From: a virus | Length of the DNA: 24,229 nt | Strand: one strand, 5' to 3' | Virus record (IMG/VR): IMGVR_UViG_3300009181_000328 | Coordinates: 1 to 24,229 of that record | Part shown: piece by piece, positions 1,512-20,401 of the stretch | Numbering within the stretch: position 1 is the first letter of the stretch | How the letters are laid out: every line of letters begins with the position of its first letter | Notes under the pieces: generated by a model | Database searches by the model: none | Seen by the model: only the letters and a program-made list of their open reading frames with translations | What the model was told of the DNA's origin: nothing | Made by a program: the position numbers and the translations under genes

Positions 1512-2273
1512 TCAACCAATCACAAAGGTGATGGGCTGCGCTCCGTCGATGTACCTGCGAAGATCTTCGAGCAATAGATCTATCTGTGTTTGAGCTTCGG
1601 CTTTCATGGCAGTGCCGTTTAGGGTGCCGCCACCTTGTGGGCCAGCGATAGTACCAAATTTCTCACGTGCTTCGCCAATGATCATCTTGCAGCCAGCCAC
1701 CATGTAATCTCGTATCCATTGCTGTATCTGATAGTCGCTCAACAGATTGATTTCGGGTTTGAGCTGATAACACCAGATCAACACATTCTCTCCGGTGTTT
1801 TTGGGATCACGGATCAGTTGCAGTTTTTTATTCACTGGATTCCATGTGTAGTTCATGAACCCACCGAACATCTTGGCCGCCAGTTCCACATACTGGCTGT
1901 AGAAATCGTATGTGGCCAGGCCACCTGCCACGTTGAAGTTCATGAGATACACATTGATCGACGCCTGTGCAAAAGGATCAAAGTTTGATGCGAAAGGACC
2001 AGTAGCATCACCAAATGTGCGACGGAATATCTGTCTCACACTTTGCACTTCTTGCGGCAGTGTGTAGATGTTGAGATCTCGGATCAACTCCATGAAGATG
2101 TAGGCTTCTTCATATGCAGCATTGGACCGCTGTCTGAAAACACCTATGGCTCGCTGATATGCTGCTTCATAGTGTTCAGGATCCAACTCAAGATCGATTA
2201 TCTGCCCGCCCAAGGTTAGGCGAGTGTAATCAATCAGGGCTTGCTTGAGTTGTGGTAGTGTGTTGTCAGACAT
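1512..2273 (-). CDS. Neck / head-tail connector protein, gp13-like
   Basis: A 253-residue protein starting MSDNTLPQLK. The N-terminal pattern LGGQIIDLELDPEHYEAAYQRA, that is a short helix, a conserved GxxxIxxEL strand and then an aligned acidic/aromatic helix, resembles the gp13 neck proteins of T4-like marine phages, and the length is close to theirs (T4 gp13 is about 309). In T4, gp13 binds the head portal vertex and with gp14 closes it for tail joining. The C-terminal part (residues about 180-250) is helical with no recognised motif. The start ATG abuts a perfect 12-bp hairpin whose loop carries the only plausible Shine-Dalgarno (GGAG). The gp14- and gp15-like genes, normally adjacent and co-directional, lie nearby on the other strand. 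Assignment rests on remembered family patterns and synteny. Confidence 0.55.
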   Translation of the reverse strand: MSDNTLPQLKQALIDYTRLTLGGQIIDLELDPEHYEAAYQRAIGVFRQRSNAAYEEAYIFMELIRDLNIYTLPQEVQSVRQIFRRTFGDATGPFASNFDPFAQASINVYLMNFNVAGGLATYDFYSQYVELAAKMFGGFMNYTWNPVNKKLQLIRDPKNTGENVLIWCYQLKPEINLLSDYQIQQWIRDYMVAGCKMIIGEAREKFGTIAGPQGGGTLNGTAMKAEAQTQIDLLLEDLRRYIDGAQPITFVIG

Positions 2274-2298
2274 AAGGGGGAACTCCGTTCCCCCTTAT
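2272..2298 (-). promoter_or_regulatory. 12-bp hairpin holding the ribosome-binding site of the gp13-like gene
   Basis: A perfect inverted repeat with arms 2272-2283 and 2287-2298 and a 3-base loop. On the minus strand the loop and its edge read GGAG, nine bases before the ATG at 2271-2273, and the stem includes two bases of the start codon. No U-run follows on the transcribed strand, so it is not a normal intrinsic terminator for the preceding gene. It more likely controls or focuses ribosome access. The stop codon of the 382-residue gene (2299-2301) directly precedes it. Confidence 0.7.
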
Positions 2299-2303
2299 TT
2301 ACC
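2296..2303 (-). promoter_or_regulatory. Candidate phage late promoter box GGTAAATA
   Basis: The minus strand reads GGTAAATA, sharing the TAAATA core of the T4 late box TATAAATA, 22 bases before the gp13-like ATG. The identical octamer stands 22 bases before the 2591-residue fibre gene. It overlaps the stop codon of the upstream gene and the foot of the hairpin, so the predicted transcript would begin inside the hairpin. Weak on its own; supported by recurrence. Confidence 0.35.
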
Positions 2304-13000: not shown

Positions 13001-14792
13001 CTAGGATATTACCACCAGTGATGTTACCGCTGGTGGATATTGGGTTTGAGCCAAATGCTGCCAAGTTAGCTGCCACGTTGGCATTGCCATAACCGGCTGC
13101 AATACCCGTCAGCTGAGAGCCATTACCGATAAAAAAGTTGCCGGTGATATTGCCCGTGGCACTCACAATGCCAGCAGTTAAGATGTTGCCGCCGGTGACG
13201 TTGGCACTGACTGAAACAGTGGTACCTGTATGAGTTGTGGCGTTGACATTGGCACCACCTAGGATATTACCACCAGTGATATTGCCACTTGTGGATATTG
13301 GGTTTGAGCCAAATGCTGCCAAGTTAGCTGCCACATTGGCATTGCCATATGTGGCTGCAATACCCGTCAGCTGAGAGCCATTACCGATAAAAAAGTTGCC
13401 GGTGATATTGCCGGTTGTGCTGACTGGATTTGTGCCCAATGCAGCCAAGTTGGCAACAACATTGGCGTTGCCGTAACTGGCAGCAATACCTGTCAGCTGA
13501 GATCCATTGCCAATAAAGAAATTGCCGGTTACATTACCGGTTGATGATACAATGCCAGCAGTTAATATATTACCACCAGAGATGTTGCCGGTTACCGCTA
13601 CGGTGCCCAACGTACCCACTGAGGTTATATTGGTCTGTGCTGCTGTGGTCAGGGTACCCGCAATACTGGCGCCGCTGAGGTTGCCACCGGTTATATTACC
13701 TGTTGCACTTATCACACCACCTGTCAATACATTGCCGCCGGTGACATTGGCACTGACTGAAACTGTGGTACCTGTATGTGTGGTAGCATTCACGTTGGCG
13801 CCGCCTAACACATTACCACCAGTGATGTTACCAGTCACTGCTAGACTAGTCAATGTGCCCACTGAGGTAACATTGGTCTGTGCTGCTGTGGTCAGGGCAC
13901 CCGCGATACTGGTGCCTGAGAGATTGCCACCTGTGATGTTGCCGGTGGTGGATACTGGATTGGTTCCAAGTGCTGCCAAGTTGGCCACCACATTGGCATT
14001 GCCATATGCGGCTGCAAGACCGGTAAGTTGTGATCCATTGCCAACAAAGTAGTTGCCAGTGATATTGCCTGTGGTTGATACAGGATTAGTGCCAAATGCT
14101 GCCAAGTTGGCAGCCACGTTGGCATTGCCGTATGGAGTAAGAGTTCCGGCGCCGGATATCACTGAAGTCTGTCCTGATTCATTTACAAAAACAATGCTGG
14201 TACTGTTGGCACTGATACTGGCGTTGCCTAAGAAAAGAGAATTGTTTGAAAGATAAAGATCGTTAAATGCAGCAGTTGGGCTACCTAGATTATAGGTGAT
14301 ATTAGCTGTTGGAATTATGTTGGCTTTGACAACAATATTAGCCGGAGTAAAAACTGCTATATTGCTAACACCACCCACGCCCACGGAAACATTGCTATTG
14401 GCCGCTACACTCACATTGCTGTTGCCGTTGATAATTGATGTTCCGCCGCCACCGGCAGAGATGCCAGTCAGTTGAGATCCGTTACCTACAAAATATGTTG
14501 AGTAAACTGTATCGAATCGAACATTGGCGGTACCGATATCATACACCGCATCAATGCCGGGCACAATTGTGCTGTTGGCCTGAATGTTGCCAACACCATT
14601 GCCTGCCAGTACCAAATTGTTATTTGTCCCAATCACACCAATGGTGTTTCCGGAGATCACCACATTACTATCTACAGGTCCTGCTGCATATATTTCGGAA
14701 AAATTTTCATTTACTGCGGTAAATGCATCGCGTAATGACTCGCCGGTGCCATCATTTGTTGTGTTACCGGTGTTGATGATCTGTTGTGCCAT
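7017..14792 (-). CDS. Giant repetitive tail fibre / adhesin (2591 aa)
   Basis: N-terminus MAQQIINTGNTTNDGTGESL followed by FTAVNENFSEIYAAG is the opening used by many virion-attached fibre proteins of marine T4-like phages. From residue about 215 to 2455 it is built from shuffled modules: a 27-residue unit GNITGGNVLGGANVNATTHT..., a 37-residue unit GNLSGTSIVGTLTTAAQTNI..., and a unit with GNGSQLTGI. Residues 2456-2591 are a separate domain (QYADLAEMYAADAYYTPGTV, ISTDPAHLMN-like, GRVP, MMVSAGNG, VGRL) shared with the 1322-residue neighbour. The composition (Gly, Asn, Thr, Ser, Val, Ala) and short period suggest a long fibrous beta structure, probably trimeric, ending in a receptor-binding or maturation domain. 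The ATG at 14790-14792 follows an AGGA in a hairpin. A candidate late box stands 22 bases upstream. Function as fibre is well supported, receptor unknown. Confidence 0.88.
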   Translation of the reverse strand: MAQQIINTGNTTNDGTGESLRDAFTAVNENFSEIYAAGPVDSNVVISGNTIGVIGTNNNLVLAGNGVGNIQANSTIVPGIDAVYDIGTANVRFDTVYSTYFVGNGSQLTGISAGGGGTSIINGNSNVSVAANSNVSVGVGGVSNIAVFTPANIVVKANIIPTANITYNLGSPTAAFNDLYLSNNSLFLGNASISANSTSIVFVNESGQTSVISGAGTLTPYGNANVAANLAAFGTNPVSTTGNITGNYFVGNGSQLTGLAAAYGNANVVANLAALGTNPVSTTGNITGGNLSGTSIAGALTTAAQTNVTSVGTLTSLAVTGNITGGNVLGGANVNATTHTGTTVSVSANVTGGNVLTGGVISATGNITGGNLSGASIAGTLTTAAQTNITSVGTLGTVAVTGNISGGNILTAGIVSSTGNVTGNFFIGNGSQLTGIAASYGNANVVANLAALGTNPVSTTGNITGNFFIGNGSQLTGIAATYGNANVAANLAAFGSNPISTSGNITGGNILGGANVNATTHTGTTVSVSANVTGGNILTAGIVSATGNITGNFFIGNGSQLTGIAAGYGNANVAANLAAFGSNPISTSGNITGGNILGGANVNATTHTGTTVSVTGNITGGNILGGANVNATTHTGATVSVTGNITGGNLSGTSIVGTLTTAAQTNITSVGTLGSLTVTGNATSGNLLTAGIVSSTGNVTGGNVLTAGLVSATGNITGGNIVTTGSGGNISGANVINSTTLSATANVIGGNLTTAGIVLATGNVTGNFFIGNGSQLTGLAATYGNANVVANLAAFGSNPISTSGNITAGNILGGANVNATTHTGATVSVTGNITGGNLSGTSIVGTLTTAAQTNITSVGTLISLAVTGNATGGNILTGGIVSATGNVTGNYFIGNGSQLTGIAAGYGNANVAANLAAFGSNPILTTGNITGGNIITGGISSSGTSTAASYSATGNVTGGNIITGGATITTGASTAASYSTTGNITGNYFLGNGSQLTGLPATYGNANVAANLAAFGTNPISTSGNITAGNILFGIFGLLGTGDAQVGNLTVSNGPGVGNLVVGNIVSATGNILTGGNVSATANVIGGNLVTGGLISATGNITGGNILAGGVGTQISTGGNVNGAAFNGSVYFSTGVVTGSGNITGGNIAVSGVLLSTNSISAAGNVIGGNVTTVGNVVTTNTAIAEDLRVGTGITRGTISAYGNITGANLNAAGLSLSSNVVSALNVTANIAGGNLTTPGTVSASANILTSGLISATGNITGGNLLGTSIVGTLTTAAQTNITSVGTLTSLAVTGNTTGGNLLTAGVISSTGNITGGNLTVGGSIAGTIITATQTNITAVGTLGSLNVTGNITGGNVLGGSNVNATTHTGTTVSVTGNITGGNVLGGANVNATTHTGTTVSVTGNITGGNATFGTLSLTGNTISSSDNIITIDPAAAGNTGAVIIQGNLSVTGNVTYIDSNTITTNDLVINMANNAATAAAANGGGIGVGPVGAEYATLTYNSTGNIWTVSNGAGVAGLMSASGNVTGANINTGGLVSATGNITGGNILGGANVNATTHTGTTVSVTGNITGGNVLGGANVNATTHTGTTVSVTGNITGGNLSGTSIVGTLTTAAQTNITSVGTLTSLAVTGNISGANINTGGIVSATGNITGANINTGGIVSVTGNITGNYYIGNGSLLTGVAATTVGTLASLSVTGNTTTGNLITGGAISATGNISGGNVLGGANVNAVLLSGTTVSVSANITGGNIITAGSGGNISGANVVNATTLSATANVIGGNLTTSGIVSATGNISGGNLSGTSIVGTLTTAAQTNITSVGTLGSLAVTGNISGGNVLGGANVNATTHTGTTVSVTGNINGGNIISAAALSATSLSLGSGSSTAGSYSATGNITGGNILTGGLISATSTVTGSQFNGSGAGLTSIPGANVTGTVPSATTAGTVTTAAQGNITSVGTLTSLAVTGNISGGNLSGTSIVGTLTTAAQTNITSLGTLGSLAVTGNTTSGNLLTGGLISSTGAVTASQFNGSGAGLTSIPAANVTGTLSVNTSGYAATVSGAAQGNITSVGTLGSLAVTGNITSGNLSGTSIVGTLTTAAQTNITSVGTLTSLAVTGNITSGNLSGTSIVGTLLTAAQTNITSVGTLGSLNVTGNITGGNVLGGANVNATTHTGTTVSVTSTVTGSQFNGSGAGLTSIPGANVTGTVPLATSATTAGTVTTAAQGNITSVGTLTSLAVTGNITSGNLSGTSIVGTLTTAAQTNITSVGTLGSLAVTGNITSGNLSGTSIVGTLTTAAQTNITSVGTLTSLAVTGNISGGNVLGGANVNATTHTGTTVSVTSTVTGSQFNGSGAGLTSIPGANVTGTVPSATSATTAGTVTTAAQGNITSVGTLTGLTVSATINGSVSGSAGSATTAGTVTTAAQGNITSLGTLTGLTINNATTAINNAATTGTGNIGASGAVFNTVFAKATSAQYADLAEMYAADAYYTPGTVLEFGGSEEITLSDSDMSTRIIGVVSTDPAHLMNSDLQANHPTAVALIGRVPCSVVGTVRRGDMMVSAGNGAARSESNPAPGSILGKAVQDHTGVAGVIEILVGRL
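7020..7427 (-). other. C-terminal domain of the 2591-aa fibre, shared with its paralogue
   Basis: Residues 2456-2591, non-repetitive. Conserved with residues about 1187-1322 of the other fibre: FNTVFAKAT, QYADLAEMY, GVVSTDPAHLMN, GRVP, GNG and a terminal VGRL are identical while intervening residues differ. The arrangement of strands after DLAEMY and PGTV recalls domains next to intramolecular chaperones or receptor-binding tips. No S74 peptidase Ser/Lys dyad was identified. Confidence 0.7.
7430..14150 (-). repeat. Modular DNA repeats inside the 2591-aa fibre gene
   Basis: Imperfect direct repeats with two clear periods: 111 bases (37 residues; compare 8421-8530 with 8532-8641) and 81 bases (27 residues; compare 10021 with 10102, and 10594 with 10675). 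About a dozen copies of each module are mixed in changing order with a longer GNGSQLTG unit. Many copies differ only by synonymous bases, so the array is a likely substrate for recombination within the gene and with the paralogue at 15270-18700. Confidence 0.85.
10245..10535 (-). other. Non-repetitive island in the 2591-aa fibre
   Basis: Around residues 1420-1515 the modules are interrupted by a single-copy stretch with VTYIDSNTITTNDLVINMAN, ANGGGIGVG and YNSTGNIWTVSNGAG. The same pattern (a strand naming a test basis, a run of NAA/AAA, GGGI.VG, then Y.S..N.W) is common in fibres of aquatic phages, so it is probably an inserted globular or trimerising module. Confidence 0.55.
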
Positions 14793-14797
14793 GTGGG

Positions 14798-14834
14798 TTC
14801 CTGAGTTTATGATATATTTACCATAACTCAGGAA
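14798..14834 (-). promoter_or_regulatory. Leader hairpin holding the Shine-Dalgarno of the 2591-aa fibre
   Basis: Arms 14798-14807 and 14825-14834 are perfectly complementary (10 bp); a further ATG/CAT triplet (14809-14811 with 14822-14824) pairs across a one-base bulge, leaving a 10-base AT loop. On the minus strand the 3' arm contains CAGGAA, the only Shine-Dalgarno, seven bases before the ATG. No U-run follows, so it is not a standard terminator for the upstream 1322-residue fibre gene. Confidence 0.65.
14815..14822 (-). promoter_or_regulatory. Candidate phage late promoter box GGTAAATA
   Basis: Identical octamer and identical 22-base distance to the ATG as the box before the gp13-like gene. 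It lies in the loop of the leader hairpin; transcripts initiated here would lack the 5' arm and therefore would not form the hairpin, whereas read-through from the upstream fibre gene would. Confidence 0.4.
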
Positions 14835-18823: not shown

Positions 18824-19411
18824 TCAAAGTTCCTTTGTGTTATTTATACGATTCAAAAAGTCCGCCATGGGCATGTGATGTAGATTGCCAACATTTTTGA
18901 AATCTGCTATGTCAGCAGTGGTCGGACCAACAACTCGATAAAAACTGACTTTGCGAAAATCCTTACAGAGCTTTGCAATCTGTTTGGCCCAATTGCCAGT
19001 GTAAGTGGGGTTTGCAGAACTCTTTTTATAGAATTCTGTATCCGCATAACAGTTGTTGAACCGACCAGTTCGGGTTGGCCCCATATCAAACCCAATCATA
19101 TAAACTGCTCGGTTGGCATCTGCTGCTGCTATACTCACAGCTACTGGCCCTGAACTGTAGCCAAAATATTCTTGATCGATACGTACTGCTCCAGAATCTG
19201 GCAAAGGACGGCGGGTGTACATTCTGTTTTTTTGTGCATAACCTGTTCGTTGTATGGCTTCACTGATAGGCACATCAGTACTGATCAACACTGTAGGAGT
19301 GAATTCACGATAGATCGCGTTGCATCCATATACTGGCCCAAGCGACAGCAAGAGATCTAAGTCAATCCCTTGACGGCTCACGCCATTACCCAACACGAAT
19401 GCTCTGCTCAT
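18824..19411 (-). CDS. GT42/DUF115-like protein (possible glycosyltransferase)
   Basis: A 195-residue protein. The N-terminal AFVLGNGVSRQGIDLDLL gives the GNGxS nucleotide-binding turn seen in GT42 sialyltransferases and DUF115 proteins. It is followed by YGCNAIYREF (the conserved Asn after a CN/GCN turn), VLISTD, and at residues 86-110 SSGPVAVSIAAADANRAVYM then IGFDM, which corresponds to the SG...A...G...VYL.GxD block of that fold. It is shorter than bacterial members (about 250-300), and similar short versions occur in T4-like phages. No catalytic residue can be assigned securely. The gene sits directly upstream of the fibre genes and its last codons contain their late promoter. The Shine-Dalgarno lies in the terminator hairpin before it. 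Role could be sugar modification of virion or host; inferred. Confidence 0.5.
   Translation of the reverse strand: MSRAFVLGNGVSRQGIDLDLLLSLGPVYGCNAIYREFTPTVLISTDVPISEAIQRTGYAQKNRMYTRRPLPDSGAVRIDQEYFGYSSGPVAVSIAAADANRAVYMIGFDMGPTRTGRFNNCYADTEFYKKSSANPTYTGNWAKQIAKLCKDFRKVSFYRVVGPTTADIADFKNVGNLHHMPMADFLNRINNTKEL
18825..18837 (-). promoter_or_regulatory. Small hairpin around the Shine-Dalgarno of the 1322-aa fibre
   Basis: Minus strand CAAAG, loop GAA, CTTTG (5-bp stem), one base from the ATG. The Shine-Dalgarno AAAGGAA spans the 5' arm and loop, so it would be partly masked. Short and weak, but it is the same arrangement seen before three other genes here. Confidence 0.4.
18841..18848 (-). promoter_or_regulatory. 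T4-consensus late promoter TATAAATA
   Basis: An exact TATAAATA on the minus strand, 17 bases before the ATG of the 1322-residue fibre gene, inside the 3' end of the GT42-like gene. In T4 this box is read by gp55 (late sigma) with gp33 and the gp45 clamp, which implies that this phage carries a gp55 homologue elsewhere. Confidence 0.75.
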
Positions 19412-19416
19412 AAAAA

Positions 19417-19443
19417 ATCCTCCCAGTATGTAGCTGGGAGGAT
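19417..19443 (-). terminator. Intrinsic terminator that also carries the next gene's ribosome-binding site
   Basis: Perfect 10-bp stem (arms 19417-19426 and 19434-19443, loop of seven) followed on the minus strand by six T, a classical intrinsic terminator for the upstream virion gene (stop at 19460). The minus-strand 3' arm reads CTGGGAGGAT, whose GGAGG is the only Shine-Dalgarno for the GT42-like gene, seven to nine bases before its ATG at 19409-19411. Termination and initiation signals are thus the same bases. Confidence 0.8.
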
Positions 19444-19459
19444 CCGGACACCTAACAAA

Positions 19460-20290
19460 TTAGGATGTGACGCTGGCGATTTGAGCCAATTGCAGAGTAC
19501 CATTTTGCGACTGAGCGCCGCCAATAACTTCAGCACCAGACCATGTAACCGAACCTTCATCAGTGAAGAAGTTGGTAGGATAGAAGTTTTCTGCACTTTG
19601 GACATTGACACCCAAATTGCTGTTGCTATAGTTGCCAACGGTCATGCCATTCCAGTCACGTACCCACTTGTTGGTGATATAACTGGCATACACAGCAGCA
19701 CTATCGCCTACTGAATAACTAATACTCATGTTGCCTGCAGACGGAGTTGCTGTGTTTGACAACACACATTGACCTACAGGATATACTGTACCATTACCGG
19801 CACCTACAGCCAATGCTGTGAATATTCTACCTACTGCTGCTGTACCACTCAAGATTGTGGACCAATCACTTGTGCCCAAGGATACGATTTGATAACTTTG
19901 ACCAACAATAAGACCGCTGCTGAGTGCATAAGTTCCGCCGGTATAGGCTACCAGGAACTTGTGCGCACCTTTTTGGCGTATGATACGTCCGGTATAGCTG
20001 CTGGCCAATGAAAAAGTGTTTGACCCATCTGCCAATAGAATATTGACCAATGCAGCAACTTCTGGATAGGTAGCACTGGCTGTGCTGGTCACCGGCGAAC
20101 CGCCAACCACACCCAGATATTCAGTGTCATTTAGAGTCTGAACTGGGGTGTTATAAGCAGGATTTGTCAATGCACTAAACGGTGGAAAACCTGCGTCAGT
20201 TAGAATGTTTTGATTGTAGCTGGTTGTTGAACCGGAAACACTTGTGCCTGAACCAGTGTTTGTTTTTTGAATTTTAAGAGCTCTTCCCAT
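19460..20290 (-). CDS. Virion structural protein (276 aa), tail/fibre-associated
   Basis: I chose the ATG at 20288-20290 (MGRALKIQKTNTGSG) because an AAGGAG lies eight bases before it; the longer reading from 20314 has none. The GRALKIQKTNT opening is a recurrent start of virion proteins in T4-like marine phages. Residues about 125-165 hold the module SYQIVSLGTSDWSTI, then GRIFTAL and GAGNGTVYPV, which is common in phage tail and fibre proteins and probably forms a small beta domain. The C-terminal third (YITNKWVRDWNGM, VQSAENFYPTNFFTDEGSV, GGAQSQNGTLQLAQIAS) is beta-rich and Ser/Asn-rich. No membrane or signal segments. It sits first in a minus-strand unit with the GT42-like gene and fibres, so assembly with the fibre complex is likely but not shown. 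Confidence 0.6.
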   Translation of the reverse strand: MGRALKIQKTNTGSGTSVSGSTTSYNQNILTDAGFPPFSALTNPAYNTPVQTLNDTEYLGVVGGSPVTSTASATYPEVAALVNILLADGSNTFSLASSYTGRIIRQKGAHKFLVAYTGGTYALSSGLIVGQSYQIVSLGTSDWSTILSGTAAVGRIFTALAVGAGNGTVYPVGQCVLSNTATPSAGNMSISYSVGDSAAVYASYITNKWVRDWNGMTVGNYSNSNLGVNVQSAENFYPTNFFTDEGSVTWSGAEVIGGAQSQNGTLQLAQIASVTS

Positions 20291-20326
20291 TTTTTTCTCC
20301 TTAAAGAAGCCCAATGTGGGTTCTAG

Positions 20327-20340
20327 CCACTACGCAGTGG
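20327..20340. promoter_or_regulatory. Short palindrome in the divergent intergenic region
   Basis: CCACT-ACGC-AGTGG, a perfect 5-bp inverted repeat, followed by a second small one (CCCA-ATG-TGGG, 20310-20320) nearer the virion gene. The 145-base region 20291-20435 separates the divergent virion gene and the glycosyltransferase, so the palindrome could be an operator or a leader structure; nothing shows which. Confidence 0.25.
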
Positions 20341-20372
20341 TTGCTGCATAAGACGCATTATCGCGTACATAG

Positions 20373-20401
20373 TTGACTTATATTTAGCTGCATGTTAAAA
20401 T
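20373..20401 (+). promoter_or_regulatory. Sigma70-type promoter of the TPR-glycosyltransferase gene
   Basis: TTGACT (20373-20378), 17 bases, TAAAAT (20396-20401) with a TGT extension. Start site expected near 20408, leader about 28 bases. No good Shine-Dalgarno: GCGGA ends 17 bases before the ATG. On the minus strand the region also reads GCTAAATA (20381-20388), a weak late-box candidate for the divergent virion gene. Confidence 0.7.

Follow-up and report, generated by a model that had tools for sequence, protein, structure and literature searches.

A conserved hairpin before a sialyltransferase-like gene of jumbo T4-like phages: a probable terminator and Shine–Dalgarno lock that may hold a weak late promoter

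In bacteriophage T4, a late promoter can lie within the hairpin that pairs with a gene's own Shine–Dalgarno (SD) sequence, the precedents being e, soc, 49 and I-TevI (PMC3014915, PMC2988022). The same design is found in the leader of T4 gene e (lysozyme), soc, 49, I-TevI/II/III, segB and mobE of Aeh1, and the element described here resembles this group: the SD is paired in a hairpin on transcripts arriving from upstream, and a putative late box lies within that hairpin, such that late RNA would lack the 5′ arm. The arrangement in T4 e, TAAATA-CTT-AGGAGG-TATT-ATG, has the same order and spacing as in the element. However, T4 e has a canonical box and no U-run, whereas the element has a box that is one base off and a U-run that makes its hairpin terminator-like, and the T4 cases block read-through from early and middle transcription, whereas the gene upstream of the element is itself late. 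New with respect to the T4 e design are the fusion with a terminator-like U-run, the placement with a late gene on either side, and a box that departs from the canonical sequence in every case. By analogy, the element would work like the control of T4 gene e; full membership of the group depends on a mapped 5′ end.

Two further kinds of system are comparable. Like the intrinsic (Rho-independent) terminators of T4-like phages, the element has a G+C-rich stem and a tail of 6–7 U soon after a stop codon; unlike them, its 3′ arm is the SD, its tail is the SD–AUG spacer, and its loop and arms hold conserved signals. Like translational attenuators and other SD-sequestering leaders, it has an upstream arm that masks the SD; unlike attenuators, it has no leader peptide, neither a ligand nor an alternative pairing was found for it, and its proposed release would be a new transcription start, with no refolding.

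The element is 37 nt long and lies on the minus strand of a 24-kb uncultured virus record, which was analysed as a whole (the window, 24,229 nucleotides). We read it, with a probability of about two in three, as a terminator, SD lock and late promoter combined in one sequence after the design of T4 gene e. This reading is built on sequence, covariation, motif statistics and predicted SD accessibility, from which we infer the transcription start, the termination and the promoter strength.

Layout, neighbours and conservation

Read on the minus strand, the element is ATCCTCCCAG-CTACATA-CTGGGAGGAT-TTTTT-ATG, with a perfect 10-bp stem (Table 1). The first T of the U-run (19417) pairs with the outermost A of the stem, and the minimum free energy structure contains the 10-bp stem plus two extra G·U pairs (−25.5 kcal/mol for 81 nt, z −2.3). 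GGAGG is 7 nt away from the ATG, and a second SD for the 195-aa ORF is absent. The original prediction, which had described a 10-bp stem, six U, GGGAGG in the 3′ arm and the U-run as spacer, was accurate by coordinates.

Table 1. Coordinates of the element and of related features in the window
Feature	Position	Strand	Basis or remark
5′ arm (anti-SD), ATCCTCCCAG	19434..19443	-	sequence, fold, covariation
Loop CTACATA	19427..19433	-	sequence
TACATA, proposed one-mismatch T4-type late box (−11 to −6)	19432-19427	-	motif statistics
3′ arm CTGGGAGGAT with the only SD (GGGAGG)	19417..19426	-	predicted +1 near 19421 by the T4 rule
U-run, six T: putative terminator tail and SD–AUG spacer	19412..19417	-	sequence
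ATG of the GT-like gene	19411-19409	-	ORF
Sialyltransferase/GT42-like gene, 195 aa, putatively under the element's control	18824..19411	-	ORF, PHROG, predicted structure
Upstream virion-type gene (MGRALKIQK...)	19460..20290	-	stop 14 nt 5′ of the extended stem
Freshwater-2 RNA (RF02980), 5′ leader of the upstream gene	20288..20368	-	Rfam
TAAATA late promoter core, upstream gene	20381..20386	-	12 nt 5′ of freshwater-2 RNA
Canonical TAAATA late promoter core, downstream fibre-like gene	18841..18846	-	within the last codons of the GT-like gene
2591-aa gene, canonical TAAATA in SD-pairing stem (ATTCCTGAGTTATGG...CTCAGGAA)	14792-14825	-	plain T4 e-type case

The capsid gene of the window is of the gp23 type (Pfam Gp23, E 1e-96) and is nearest to those of jumbo T4-like isolates, for example PA5oct and the SNUABM phages (62–66% identity). 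The gene upstream of the element is labelled virion-type because of its context and has no family match. Its leader is a freshwater-2 RNA, both in the window and in 13/13 relatives, with 12 exceeding the family cut-off. In all 13 relatives, the 5′ end of this RNA is located 4–12 nt 3′ of a canonical TAAATA; the motif therefore begins at about the start of a T4-type late transcript, which places an Rfam orphan as a leader of late phage mRNA.

The 195-aa product of the downstream gene can fairly be called sialyltransferase-like from profile and structure comparisons. It matches PHROG 4603 (alpha-2,3-sialyltransferase) with an E value of 8e-5, a Pfam search returned no match, and its structure, predicted confidently (pLDDT 93.8), weakly resembles ST6GalNAc2 (TM 0.39, E 2e-3). 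The latter belongs to a GT family other than GT42, and these matches lend the earlier label GT42-like weak support. The conserved end of the protein, INNTKEL, may be kept because the late promoter of the downstream gene overlaps these last codons.

The element is not a chance occurrence; it is real and conserved. A search with the 195-aa protein yielded 80 loci, and the hairpin, the U-run and the ATG are present in all 73 closer ones (52–100% identity to the 195-aa protein); the hairpin is absent from seven distant homologues (36–39% identity, L075–L081), which are located in other surroundings. A second search, starting from the upstream gene, also gave 80 loci, 79 of which reach beyond the stop codon. 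The hairpin followed by the GT-like gene was found in 79/79 of these, in 73 distinct versions, with one locus ending early within the GT-like gene. No locus that keeps the upstream gene without the GT-like gene was found among the 80.

Among 40 distinct sequences, 96.5% of the stem cells are paired, six of the ten pairs show two-sided changes, and covariation amounts to 0.287 versus 0.158 ± 0.012 in shuffles (0/500 as high); with slid partners it is at most 0.108. In the 64 ungapped elements, standard pairs occupy 634 of 640 pair cells, with swaps between C-G, U-A, U-G and A-U. Covariation between stem and SD, which had been set beforehand as a check, is thus found, and no relative carrying the element has an unpaired SD. 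A mobile or repeated element was considered and rejected: there is one strong copy per genome, second matches are weak, and those inspected were terminator-like sites or the DnaJ case described below. Exact copies of the 37-mer were traced to this one gene as carried by other phages. No Rfam match above the gathering score was obtained at the hairpin, the only one being freshwater-2 upstream.

SD masking and termination

SD accessibility was calculated as the unpaired probability from partition-function folding, with the late +1 assumed. For the window, values of 0.0001 on read-through RNA and 0.96 from the predicted +1 were found, and the means for 73 elements are 0.006 and 0.79, respectively. 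The corresponding values are 0.0009 and 0.60 for T4 e, and 0.25 and 0.97 for T4 I-TevII. Folding thus agrees with the original claim that a transcript reading through the hairpin carries a masked SD.

The element displays the features of an intrinsic terminator: a G+C-rich stem directly followed by at least five U, downstream of a gene end. A U-run of at least five is present in 69/73 elements. In four relatives, at least six U precede the ATG in only 4 of 786 genes, and the element itself accounts for two of these. The U-run, seldom seen ahead of a start codon in these phages, fits a terminator. Strict hairpin-plus-U sites number 20, 7, 15 and 19 in four genomes versus 0–1 in shuffled sequence; many of them lie 20–60 nt past stop codons, and the seven in G001 include the element. 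A simple terminator scan of the window did not list the element, probably because the stem extension consumes the U-run by G·U pairs; it was listed when a near-identical 151-kb record was scanned more strictly.

The U-run could instead be an A/T-rich spacer, with no terminator at all and the element a plain promoter-in-hairpin of the T4 e type. T4 e functions without a U-run, and termination can be weak at a site as near to a stop codon as this one. Still, runs of at least five U seldom precede start codons in these phages and yet are kept in nearly all elements, and they are missing from nearly all other SD-pairing promoter hairpins, which makes this explanation improbable.

The stem begins 13–15 nt after the upstream stop codon in 31/36 relatives. 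In Escherichia coli, termination at such distances ranges from about 0.1 to 0.8, and a trailing ribosome can lower it (PMC4824070); termination at the element may therefore be partial, in which case the SD lock would handle the remainder. That the hairpin stops transcription of the upstream gene, as had been proposed, is suggested by the terminator-like stem and U-run and by similar sites throughout the genomes, and it is from these that we infer termination itself. A ribosome positioned at the stop codon should just fail to reach a stem starting 13–15 nt downstream, which disfavours opening of the stem by coupling; the earlier suggestion that coupled ribosomes open it is therefore unsupported.

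A late box in the loop

The promoter system of the relatives is the T4 late system. In the 65 bases 5′ of genes of four relatives, TAAATA is seen 140 times versus 12.4 expected, with a position peak 15–29 nt before the ATG, and no other hexamer is more strongly enriched ahead of genes (48 versus 7.2 in G007; 15 versus 1.2 in G001). A gp55-like sigma is present in 10/10 relatives tested, and one such ORF that was scanned matches phrog_12791 with an E value of 1.5e-73. The Aeh1 late promoter, CTAAATA, closely matches the box of these phages (PMC1524935).

In the 73 distinct elements, the loop hexamer is TACATA (47), TAACTA (15), TAATTA (7), TATATA (3) or TAAGTA (1); nine elements with insertions or mismatches were read by eye, and all have TACATA. 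An apparent TAGATA proved to be a counting artefact of CTAGATACATA and similar sequences. Each of these hexamers differs from TAAATA by exactly one mismatch and is positioned about 15–16 nt before the ATG. Across long branches of the protein tree the stem varies, and TA--TA is invariant in 73/73 loops; on the label tree, several branches of which are weak, TACATA needs four changes. Before genes in general, the variants are enriched 5.0-fold (TAAGTA), 3.2-fold (TATATA), 2.9-fold (TAATTA), 2.1-fold (TACATA) and 1.7-fold (TAACTA), and in a positional test on genes without TAAATA the enrichment of TACATA and TAACTA is weak, at 1.3-fold each.

Applying the T4 rule (box −13 to −6), we predict a +1 near 19421 and a leader AGGAUUUUUU-AUG, and the position of the box fits a start that would remove the 5′ arm. 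The DNA 3′ of the box is G-rich, unlike T4 late promoters, which favour A/T there (PMC2988020), and this counts against a promoter. Variant late promoters are in use (PMC2988020). A sigma70 promoter in the loop was rejected, as TACATA agrees with TATAAT at only 3/6 positions.

Canonical TAAATA occurs in 0/73 distinct loops, whereas it forms the core before the upstream gene in 91/91 distinct sequences and before the downstream gene in 73/73, which suggests a tuned-down promoter. The simplest account of the off-consensus box would be selection for a weak late promoter of an enzyme needed in small amounts. Because the box is never canonical, the loop could also be conserved for another reason, with TAAATA avoided; avoidance by itself leaves the absence of double mismatches unexplained.

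If the hairpin were a terminator and SD lock only, with a loop devoid of a promoter, the gene would be nearly silent and expressed through rare opening or from processed RNA. The universal hairpin, U-run and masked SD would suit this account, as would the missing TAAATA, which leaves late transcription from the loop putative. However, nothing requires the loop of a plain terminator to be conserved, whereas here TA--TA is kept while the stem varies, every version of the loop is one step from the phage's late box at the right spacing, and a ribosome terminating at the end of the upstream gene should not reach the hairpin. We regard this account as unlikely, if slightly less so than a hairpin without a terminator.

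The least likely of the alternatives, in our view, is an RNA operator, in which a phage or host protein would read the loop (G-N-UA-NN-UA-C) and control termination or translation, the likeness to TAAATA being incidental or the canonical sequence being avoided. Hairpins that are read by proteins typically combine a conserved loop and a covarying stem, an operator of this kind is bound by T4 gp43, and the lack of canonical TAAATA would be accounted for. On the other hand, the element is single-copy in each genome with no second strong site, and a RegA match (PF01818) is absent, although the control was silent too; moreover, an operator does not predict that every variant is one step away from TAAATA, or that unrelated hairpins elsewhere carry canonical TAAATA at the corresponding position.

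Our preferred explanation for these observations unites a terminator, an SD lock and a late promoter in one element. Transcripts of the upstream late gene would start at their own TAAATA with the freshwater-2 leader and end partly at the hairpin and U-run, and those that read through would carry the whole hairpin with the SD paired, leaving the GT-like gene untranslated. A gp55-type late holoenzyme would start at the TA(C)ATA box of the loop, with the +1 about 6 nt downstream and inside the 3′ arm, so that the RNA would lack the 5′ arm and its SD would be free. Since every version of the box deviates from consensus by one base, the gene's own promoter would keep synthesis of the enzyme low, and its output would be insulated from the strongly expressed virion genes to either side.

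The terminator and masked SD of the original prediction thus probably describe one half of the device correctly; the overall interpretation overlooked the loop, where on the best reading a weak T4-type late promoter would make up the other half. A promoter within the hairpin yielding an unstructured leader, which had been set against that interpretation, is what the loop suggests, though never in canonical form. The proposed attenuator-like device would accordingly be less an attenuator than an insulator with a promoter-in-hairpin start, and our best reading is an insulator plus a weak late promoter for the sialyltransferase-like gene. If true, a compact phage genome would set the output of one gene amid strong late genes by one short sequence that combines stop, mask and restart. 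The mechanism of T4 gene e would be extended from a block of early translation to insulation within the late programme, and the variants would constitute a natural series of one-mismatch late promoters for testing promoter strength. A wider claim, plausible and somewhat short of probable, is that a clade of jumbo T4-like phages shares a fused 37-bp late-gene terminator, SD lock and promoter exactly one base off, which insulates and tunes down an enzyme gene flanked by two strong virion genes and has a sigma70 version before a DnaJ gene.

The same layout at other genes

A late box inside an SD-pairing stem was found at 10 other genes in four relative genomes, the GT-like gene being left out, a count that holds at the chosen score. 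Permutation of the 5′ flanks gave 2.3 such genes on average and a maximum of 6 in 200 permutations. The ten include the orthologue of the 2591-aa gene of the window and several other genes of fibre- or virion-like type, and in most the box is the canonical TAAATA.

In two related records, G006 and G007, the SD hairpin of a DnaJ gene (Pfam) holds TATAAT and is followed by six T and ATG (L104, near 1480–1530, and L105). In G006, TTGACA is located 17 bases 5′ of TATAAT, and the same build may therefore serve a sigma70 promoter. On the minus strand of G003 (172580 on the reversed record), the strict terminator GGGCCCTGTAAATACTTACAGGGCTTTTTCATG holds TAAATA and is possibly another promoter-in-terminator. 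In the window, the late leader TAAATAAGGGGGAACGGAGTTCCCCCTTATG (2273-2301, minus strand) forms a strong hairpin (−19.3 kcal/mol) with the SD within its loop or next to it; this hairpin is located right at the presumed 5′ end and occurs in a shorter version in the G003 orthologue.
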